DNA of 64,000 nucleotides from Myxacorys almedinensis A (GTDB lineage: Bacteria > Cyanobacteriota > Cyanobacteriia > Leptolyngbyales > Leptolyngbyaceae). This document shows, one piece after another, positions 28,658-33,944 of the stretch. The stretch is taken from NCBI RefSeq assembly GCF_010091945.1, contig NZ_WVIE01000006.1, forward strand, positions 1 to 64,000, in the 5' to 3' direction. Within the stretch, counting starts at the first letter, position 1; the number at the start of each line of letters is the position of its first letter. The notes under the pieces were generated by a model, which saw only the letters and a program-made list of their open reading frames with translations, was not told where the DNA came from and searched no databases. A program made the translations under genes and the position numbers.

Positions 28658-32466
<3,809 letters not shown>

Positions 32467-33555
32467 ATGGCGAACCGACATCAGAAACACCGACATCAGA
32501 ACCGTTGTACGCGGTTGACGCATCATGTTTGCCCAATGTGCTGCATTTTGCCGCCGTATATGAGCGATCAGATCATTCTCAATGGAGATGCGACGCAGAA
32601 AGAATGGGCATTGCGGACGGTGCGCGCTTCGGAGCGGTTTCGGGGGCGGCGCGAGGCAGTGGGGATGGTTAATTTTAGTAGCGCGATCGCTGGTGAAAAA
32701 CGCCGCACCATTTTTGACGCAGAGACCGGAACTGACCTTCCGGGTAAGCTCGTGCGCGGAGAGGGCGATCCCCCCACTGGGGATATTAGTGTTGATGAAG
32801 CCTACGATGGGTCGGGCATCACCTATGATTTTTTCAACGACATTTTTGAGCGCAACTCGATCGATGGGTATGGGCTACGTCTAGATTCAACAGTGCATTT
32901 CGATCGCAAATACGATAACGCCTTCTGGAATGGCAGCCAGATGGTCTACGGCGATGGCGATGGTGAGTTATTCAACCGATTTACGATTTCGATCGACATT
33001 ATTGGGCACGAACTTACCCACGGCGTGACGCAGTATGAAGCGGGACTGGTCTACCGAGGGCAACCGGGGGCGCTAAATGAGTCGATGTCGGATGTGTTTG
33101 GCAGCTTGATCAAGCAGTATAGTCTCAAGCAACCAGCAGACGAAGCAGACTGGCTGATCGGTGCAGGACTGCTGACCGACAAAATCAGCGGCGTGGCGCT
33201 ACGATCGATGAAAGCCCCCGGAACTGCTTATAACGACAAAGTGCTGGGCAAAGATCCCCAGCCAGCAGACATGAAAAGCATTTATACCGGAACCGCCGAC
33301 AATGAAGGAGTCCACATCAATTCGGGCATTCCCAATCGAGCGTTTTATCTTGCCGCCAGCGAGATTGGGGGCAATGCGTGGGAGAAGGCAGGGAAAATTT
33401 GGTACGTTGCCTTGACCGAACGGTTGCGATCGCGCGCCAACTTTAGACGGGCTGCCAATGCCACCATCGCGATCGCGGGTGAGTTGTATGGCATCGATGG
33501 CGATGAGCAAAAAGCGGTGCGGAATGCTTGGAAGACCGTCGGCGTCATCGCATAA
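32467..33555 (+). CDS. protealysin-like M4 metalloprotease
   Basis: A 362-residue thermolysin-family zinc protease. The zinc site is GHELTH plus the downstream Glu in GALNESMSDVFG; the catalytic-type His is in GVHINSG. The protein has no signal peptide. Its first 45 residues (His- and Cys-rich, then CILPPYM) match the short propeptide of protealysin-type enzymes, whose PPxxM-like motif occupies the active site until cleaved. The ATG at 32467 has AGGAGAG at 7-nt spacing. A gene for an emfourin-type inhibitor follows after 23 bp, as in characterised protealysin operons. Confidence 0.9.
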   Translation: MANRHQKHRHQNRCTRLTHHVCPMCCILPPYMSDQIILNGDATQKEWALRTVRASERFRGRREAVGMVNFSSAIAGEKRRTIFDAETGTDLPGKLVRGEGDPPTGDISVDEAYDGSGITYDFFNDIFERNSIDGYGLRLDSTVHFDRKYDNAFWNGSQMVYGDGDGELFNRFTISIDIIGHELTHGVTQYEAGLVYRGQPGALNESMSDVFGSLIKQYSLKQPADEADWLIGAGLLTDKISGVALRSMKAPGTAYNDKVLGKDPQPADMKSIYTGTADNEGVHINSGIPNRAFYLAASEIGGNAWEKAGKIWYVALTERLRSRANFRRAANATIAIAGELYGIDGDEQKAVRNAWKTVGVIA

Positions 33556-33578
33556 ACCTTGAATGGGATGAAAAAGAG

Positions 33579-33944
33579 ATGAGAAAGGCAGTCTTATGCG
33601 CTATGGTTGCGATATTTCTCGTGTCCTGTTCATCCCTTCATTCGTCTATGCGCGTCACCTTTGAGCGGAGCGGTGGATTTGCTGGACTCATGCTGACCAC
33701 CTCCTTAGACACAGCAACCTTGCCGCCAAGTGAAGCCAACCAACTCCGGCAGTTTGTTCAGGCTGCCAATTTTTTTCAGTTGCCTACCGAAATGTCGTCG
33801 GCGTCCCAACCTGATCGGTTTCAATATGACATTGCCATAGACGATGGCAAGCGGCATCATGCGGTGCGGGTGGGCGAATCGAGCGTGCCTGAGTCGCTGC
33901 GCCCGTTGATCGATTGGTGTATGGAAAAAGTGCGAGGAGGGTAG
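33579..33944 (+). CDS. emfourin-like M4 protease inhibitor with lipoprotein signal
   Basis: A 121-residue protein. After the start comes a classic lipoprotein signal: MRKA, a hydrophobic run, then lipobox LVSC. The mature part begins MRVTFERSGGFAGL, the hallmark of emfourin, the small proteinaceous inhibitor of protealysin-type M4 proteases, and continues with LPPSEANQLRQFVQAANFFQLP and YDIAIDDG. Emfourins are normally cytoplasmic, so the lipid anchor is unusual. The ATG at 33579 is supported by AAGAG and the signal peptide; the frame opens earlier (33528) inside the protease gene. Inhibition of the upstream protease is inferred from family and adjacency. Confidence 0.82.
   Translation: MRKAVLCAMVAIFLVSCSSLHSSMRVTFERSGGFAGLMLTTSLDTATLPPSEANQLRQFVQAANFFQLPTEMSSASQPDRFQYDIAIDDGKRHHAVRVGESSVPESLRPLIDWCMEKVRGG

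Follow-up and report, generated by a model that had tools for sequence, protein, structure and literature searches.

A two-gene unit lies on the forward strand of the window, the 64,000-nt stretch of Myxacorys almedinensis A DNA analysed here, and consists of a gene for an M4 protease followed, 23 bases downstream, by a gene for an emfourin. The coordinates given for the pair in the initial annotation are correct: the protease runs from ATG 32467 to a stop at 33555 and the inhibitor from ATG 33579 to 33944. It should be noted that the program-made open reading frame of the inhibitor opens earlier, at TTG 33528. Upstream of the protease, on the opposite strand, lies a gene (28658-32134) that we take to be an apcE-like phycobilisome gene, and the pair adjoins apcE in both Myxacorys species. 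The genome of M. almedinensis contains one emfourin match, one PF02868 match (the neighbouring protease) and one match to signal peptidase II (LspA). The features of the unit are as follows.

32455..32459, forward strand: Shine-Dalgarno-like AGGAG 5' of the protease start, read in the sequence; AGGAG also lies 5' of the protease ATG in Myxacorys californica.
32467..33555, forward strand: protealysin-like M4 metalloprotease without signal peptide, 362 aa (PF01447, PF02868, alignment with 2vqx, HELTH).
32530..32562, forward strand: propeptide-type motif C-P-M-C-C-I-L-P-P-Y-M at the protease N-terminus (alignment with the 2vqx precursor from residue 26; similar motif in relatives).
33579..33944, forward strand: emfourin with predicted N-terminal lipoprotein leader, 121 aa (PF20242 match).
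33579..33626, forward strand: predicted signal peptide MRKAVLCAMVAIFLVS, 16 residues (leader rule; kept in M. californica).
33618..33629, forward strand: lipobox L14-V15-S16-C17 with predicted lipidated Cys17 (lipobox pattern; L-L-S-C in M. californica).
33648..33650, forward strand: internal ATG (Met24), a possible second start, at which many leaderless emfourins begin (alignment of relatives).
33660..33920, forward strand: emfourin domain (PF20242 match).

The protease matches PF02868 (4.9e-58) and PF01447 (3.7e-29) in a Pfam domain search and carries the HExxH motif as HELTH at 33007-33021. Its best solved match is the protealysin precursor 2vqx, with residues 26-360 of the protease aligning with residues 8-340 of the precursor at E 9e-116 over a stretch that includes the CILPPYM/PPYM motif. 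The short propeptide proposed in the initial annotation is in line with this alignment at CILPPYM, but PF16485, the Pfam model of the propeptide, scores just 13.9 bits where its cut-off is 28.1, and the propeptide call therefore rests on the 2vqx alignment and the PPYM motif. Read by eye, the N-terminus has no signal peptide. When the leader rule described below was applied to 37 proteases, including nine beside leader-bearing emfourins, ten passed a low hydropathy cut-off of 1.6 (1.61-2.01) and none reached 2.2; the M. almedinensis protease is not among the ten, and that of M. californica passes at 1.85. These passes are read as the CPxCC/FCLIPP propeptide motif itself and not as a leader. 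The M4 domains, the 2vqx alignment and the N-terminus thus bear out the original description of a leaderless, protealysin-type protease. An N-terminus of the form C-P-x-C-C-[IV]-x-P-P-[HY], just before the propeptide motif, is common to many cyanobacterial protealysin-like proteases and could serve in metal binding or as a redox switch. In both proteases seen from genus g81 (L018 and L085), a histidine-rich run replaces CPxCC at this position.

The inhibitor, laid out from ATG 33579 as MRKAVLCAMVAIFLVSC-SSLHSSM-RVTFERSGGFAG, matches the Emfourin family PF20242 over residues 28-114 (E 1.2e-27; 96.6 bits against a cut-off of 27). A profile of 22 emfourins retrieves the solved Serratia emfourin 6zyg at 5.7e-17, and the M. 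almedinensis sequence alone matched no solved structure up to E 1. The best predicted structure, a two-row model (m051d4266b733), has a mean pLDDT of 78 (40-64 in the other four models), with most of the first 20 residues under 50. Compared with 6zyg, this two-row model gives Z 4.9 and rmsd 4.4 over 78 aligned residues, and Foldseek returned no match for it at or below 0.001. Eight Mago nashi entries outrank 6zyg (Z 7.5-8.2 vs 4.9), a likeness that, given a two-row model, probably reflects a common arrangement of sheet and helix.

DUF6438 (PF20033) was considered as an exported sister family of the emfourins and was rejected for having too few members. PF20033 matches emfourins weakly (12 of 22 emfourins, and the M. 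almedinensis inhibitor at 0.0013) and occurs in 2/194 cyanobacterial genomes, one match being over the cut-off and the other being emfourin L012 itself; DUF6438 was not found as a term in the literature searched. L114 has a signal-like start. Elsewhere, a long frame (L022) from the same genome as L020 carries two or more emfourin-like repeats (EISSGGFAGRTYETVLLQDG or similar) and falls below the Emfourin cut-off.

The N-terminus of the inhibitor consists of two positive residues and a hydrophobic stretch, followed by the lipobox LVSC. The two strands of the window together hold 539 ATGs followed by 40 open codons, nested ATGs and real genes included. Of these frames, 16 combine a charged start with a hydrophobic stretch, and a single one, this emfourin, also contains the lipobox pattern; the frame rule and its cut-off were fixed after the Myxacorys leader had been seen. 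In M. californica (G185, locus L005) the leader reads MRKAVLCAIVAVLLLLSC, with the lipobox L-L-S-C. The two leaders differ by one in-frame 3-base indel and by changes of M to I, I to V, F to L and V to L, so that 19 of the 24 alignment columns are identical and one of the five differing columns is a gap. Identity between the two species is 55/81 beyond the first 17 positions from the internal Met and 89/121 over the whole inhibitor, and the stretch from protease stop to inhibitor start contains indels of 1 and 11 bases. The leader is conserved as protein, with hydrophobic-for-hydrophobic changes. The genome also encodes signal peptidase II (PF01252, E 2.1e-38). Export of the emfourin is well supported by its sequence, and Cys17 is the predicted site of lipidation. 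The lipoprotein signal described initially is therefore retained, as is the difference in compartment between enzyme and inhibitor, which is predicted because a leaderless protease stands beside an emfourin with a conserved lipoprotein signal.

To place this arrangement within the family, emfourin genes were surveyed across several groups of genomes. Matches are present in 21/386 evenly drawn cyanobacterial genomes, in 25 of 42 genomes of the order to which M. almedinensis belongs, in 34/243 genomes of the order of G278 (which overlaps the evenly drawn set) and in 24/398 genomes of the phylum of a Burkholderiales genome (Pseudomonadota). Three further groups gave matches in 1/11 (family of G849), 2/2 (family of G841, already in the set) and 10/300 genomes (order of G674). 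A contig scan for relatives returned two loci, namely M. californica and a weak Burkholderiales stretch (L049); PF20242 was not found in the genome of the latter, which served only as the entry to its phylum. Among plasmid relatives, tblastn with the emfourin domain gave no match. A tblastn match to the M. almedinensis protease lies within the fetched stretch, on either strand, at 73 of the 91 emfourin loci scored below, and there is none at 18.

Leaders were scored at 91 loci (68 cyanobacterial and 23 from Pseudomonadota), including L074, the frame of which is uncertain at a contig end. Left unscored were L022 and L073 (below cut-off) and L046 (a copy of L027), and G979 and G974 lie outside the locus set. 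By a home-made rule of simple hydropathy and charge, which was written after most N-termini had been read, 12/91 true frames have a leader-like N-terminus versus 2/182 shifted frames (Fisher P 5e-5). With the hydropathy cut-off raised to 2.2, a value taken from the same output, the counts are 11/91 and 1/182 (P 3e-5). The two control passes are L015 and a lipobox-flagged shifted frame of L005 that overlaps the real leader. The remaining 79 loci have no leader by this rule, and L116-L123, read by eye outside the 91, have no clear leader.

The leader-bearing genes present several kinds of signal. A lipoprotein-type leader is flagged only in M. almedinensis (L001) and M. californica (L005). Twin-arginine leaders of the form TRR[QH]FS occur in L028, L030 (which would start at TTG) and L039, all from genus g158, where four of seven genomes have an emfourin and one of these (L038) is without a leader. 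Sec-like leaders occur in L088, L020, L093 and L111, and the other leader-bearing genes are L023 (RR, GTG start), L091 (GTG, weak) and, from the Pseudomonadota survey, L064, whose protease is 57% identical to that of M. almedinensis. The initial annotation had called for a survey of cyanobacterial emfourins for lipoprotein signals; the lipobox type was flagged only in the two Myxacorys species, and leader-like N-termini of other kinds recur elsewhere.

Phylogenies were reconstructed for the emfourins and for the combined protease and emfourin sequences. The emfourin tree comprises 67 cyanobacterial rows (L074 omitted) and 89 columns and leaves many forks unresolved; the leader state needs seven changes on it, three of them forced by well-supported (starred) branches, and 2/500 shuffles of the labels are as low. 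On the combined tree (43 loci with a full-length protease frame, 421 columns, quick method), where L061, L062 and L064 alone represent the 23 Pseudomonadota rows and L020, L091 and L111 are absent, there are likewise seven changes, six forced by starred branches, and 91/500 shuffles are as low; clustering of leader labels on this tree is thus not marked. It should be noted that these counts do not separate gain from loss and that they inherit the simple leader rule and doubtful starts. The two Myxacorys group together (99) in a starred clade of the combined tree, and since the other ten members of this clade are leaderless, gain of the leader in the Myxacorys line is the simpler reading. The bases AAAAAGAGATG before the M. 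almedinensis leader start recur unchanged ahead of the emfourin start in the leaderless L024, which would fit placement of the leader behind an old start region; this match of eleven letters in an A-rich stretch, which differs in L005, is only suggestive.

The signals around the candidate starts differ among the leader-bearing genes. Neither Myxacorys species has a Shine-Dalgarno match of at least four letters before the internal Met, which is preceded by a pyrimidine-rich stretch, or before the leader start. An internal start at this second Met, named initially as the outcome that would place the inhibitor in the cytoplasm, is accordingly not favoured, but the leader start has no such match either. 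The Tat-type genes L028, L030 and L039 have no match before the internal Met, and only L030 has one, of four letters, before the leader start. Matches of five to six letters precede the internal Met in L020, L023, L064, L093 and L111, making an internal or dual start possible in these five of the 12 leader-bearing genes; a match of at least five letters is found at 20/73 leaderless starts and at 89/1360 random ATGs of cyanobacterial loci. L088 is the safest leader case besides Myxacorys, because AAGGAGG precedes its leader start and Ile replaces the ancestral Met. Upstream of the internal Met in L020, L093 and L111 lies a conserved GAGGTTTA, which reads E-V-Y in the leader frame and resembles a ribosome-binding site that the leader has retained; at an equal distance, the leaderless L110 carries GAGGTTT. 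Degenerate codons are identical at 17/22 positions near the internal ATG versus 203/364 overall (P 0.028, with the interval picked post hoc), but a scan gives P 0.89, and synonymous conservation was rejected as evidence for an internal start.

The Myxacorys pair can be compared with known systems at several levels. It resembles the pln-m4in operon of Serratia proteamaculans, in which genes for a protealysin-type protease and an emfourin form one unit and the domains match, and differs from it in the lipoprotein leader of the inhibitor. The Serratia emfourin is not known to have an export signal, and in the emfourin profile search the alignment with 6zyg, a chain of 113 residues, begins at its residue 12. 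Leaderless cyanobacterial pairs (L024, L025 and L002 among them) share the gene order, the CPxCC-PP protease N-terminus and a homologous inhibitor, but, unlike in Myxacorys, inhibitors of this type begin directly at M-[RQ]-[VI]. The layout is also like that of L028, L030 and L039 of g158 and of L088, in which a leaderless protease lies beside an inhibitor with an export-type N-terminus, although the leaders there are of the twin-arginine (g158) or Sec/SPI-like (L088) kind rather than of the lipobox kind. Streptomyces subtilisin inhibitor and sermetstatin are exported protease inhibitors. Their structures (3ssi, 4hwx) have a weak fold likeness to the emfourin model (Z 4.9, equal to that of 6zyg and below the tool's reliable level); unlike emfourin, they act on other protease families, and there is no sequence match. 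No exported emfourin is named in the titles or abstract beginnings of the literature matches listed, a scope to which the founding 2021 paper does not belong. Within this scope, the protease-inhibitor pair and the immunity idea are known, and the inhibitor with an export leader appears to be new.

An exported inhibitor beside a leaderless protease suggests a shield of living cells against protease from dying neighbours. In the reading that we prefer, tentatively and at slightly less than an even chance, the emfourin is an exported, lipid-anchored envelope lipoprotein that blocks the neighbouring protease once this is freed and activated by lysis, sparing sister cells; the target, the membrane and the purpose of the emfourin are what we infer here. 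The protease, made without an export signal, would remain cytoplasmic, kept latent as a precursor by its short propeptide, by analogy with protealysin. The emfourin would leave the cytoplasm through Sec, be processed by signal peptidase II and be lipid-anchored via Cys17, which would expose it on the periplasmic side, at the cell surface or in the thylakoid lumen. Lysis of a cell would release and activate the protease, and anchored emfourin on living sister cells would bind it and spare their envelope. Latency of the protease, inhibition of the paired enzyme and benefit to sister cells are presumed in this mechanism. The initial suggestion that the inhibitor protects the cell surface from released protease is thus plausible, and the kin or self-protection role raised with it would be a possible extension of an idea already in the literature.

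Several published observations are relevant to this mechanism. Protealysin is described as building up as an inactive precursor that is activated after lysis (PMC6778150) and as intracellular, not secreted to the medium (PMC9505478). Exit via vesicles or a type VI system is considered possible in another report (PMC11172720), so that lysis may not be the sole route of release. PMC9505478 also states that emfourin binds the active-site region of protealysin at 1:1, that emfourin-like inhibitors have already been proposed as immunity proteins protecting sister cells, and that the optical density of Serratia without emfourin falls earlier. The latter would suit an intracellular guard; should all emfourin be exported in Myxacorys, the propeptide would have to account for the latency of the protease. 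The periplasm is continuous in filamentous cyanobacteria such as Anabaena (PMC12288457), and filaments break by localised lysis at necridia (PMC12756182), a combination in which such a shield would have a use; by analogy, Myxacorys may behave like these filaments. According to PMC12341915, cyanobacterial lipoproteins occur on the lumenal and periplasmic sides, with Sec and Tat in both membranes, and either membrane is therefore possible for the emfourin lipoprotein.

Two alternative scenarios concern which protein is made. The gene may yield a dual product, with translation from ATG 33579 giving a lipoprotein and translation from ATG 33648 a cytoplasmic emfourin, so that both compartments are guarded. 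The Met at the leaderless-start position is kept in 11/12 leader-bearing genes, while at other loci the site is occupied by A (L053 and L058), T (L066) or I (L088), and the five genes with Shine-Dalgarno matches of at least five letters before it compare with the 89/1360 random ATGs. Such matches are absent from both Myxacorys genes and from L028, L030 and L039, synonymous conservation near the internal ATG is not significant, and the Met may persist because the leader was recently gained; we therefore regard a dual product as rather unlikely, if worth keeping in mind. The leader could instead be untranslated or seldom used, the working protein being an ordinary cytoplasmic emfourin from ATG 33648. 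This would agree with the 79/91 loci that are leaderless by rule, with the start at this Met in 8/10 leaderless members of the Myxacorys clade on the combined tree (the exceptions being L029, with GTG there, and L031, which starts four codons earlier), and with the longer Shine-Dalgarno match at the internal start than at the leader start in L064, L093 and L111. We nevertheless judge it very unlikely, given a Myxacorys leader that is conserved as protein, a lipobox pattern found in one of 539 frames, and an internal Met that in Myxacorys stands behind a pyrimidine-rich stretch without a Shine-Dalgarno match.

A further scenario accepts export and changes the target, with the emfourin acting against thermolysin-like proteases that come from predators or competitors and not against the neighbouring protease. 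In PMC9505478 both protealysin and thermolysin are given as enzymes that emfourin inhibits, a lipid-anchored inhibitor would be the first to meet outside proteases, and 18/91 emfourin loci have no such protease in the fetched stretch. However, the emfourin adjoins a protealysin-like protease in both Myxacorys species and a protease match lies near 73/91 emfourins, which points to the neighbouring protease as the target and makes a foreign one improbable in our view.

Extended beyond Myxacorys, the preferred reading of a lipid-anchored shield leads to a more speculative proposal, which we put forward as doubtful: in filamentous cyanobacteria, emfourins may have been repeatedly exported by lipoprotein, Tat and Sec signals, with the partner protease kept inside, as a safety system for sacrificial lysis that protects the living cells of a shared periplasm, and some genes may give both exported and cytoplasmic forms. 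There is no agreed role for protealysin-like proteases and emfourins, which are regarded as virulence factors, as intracellular regulators or as an attack-and-immunity pair. If true, a recurring split with the protease inside and the inhibitor outside would tell where these lineages encounter the danger and would make the immunity idea testable by simple localisation. It would also present an inhibitor family that has changed compartment several times by gaining different export signals.
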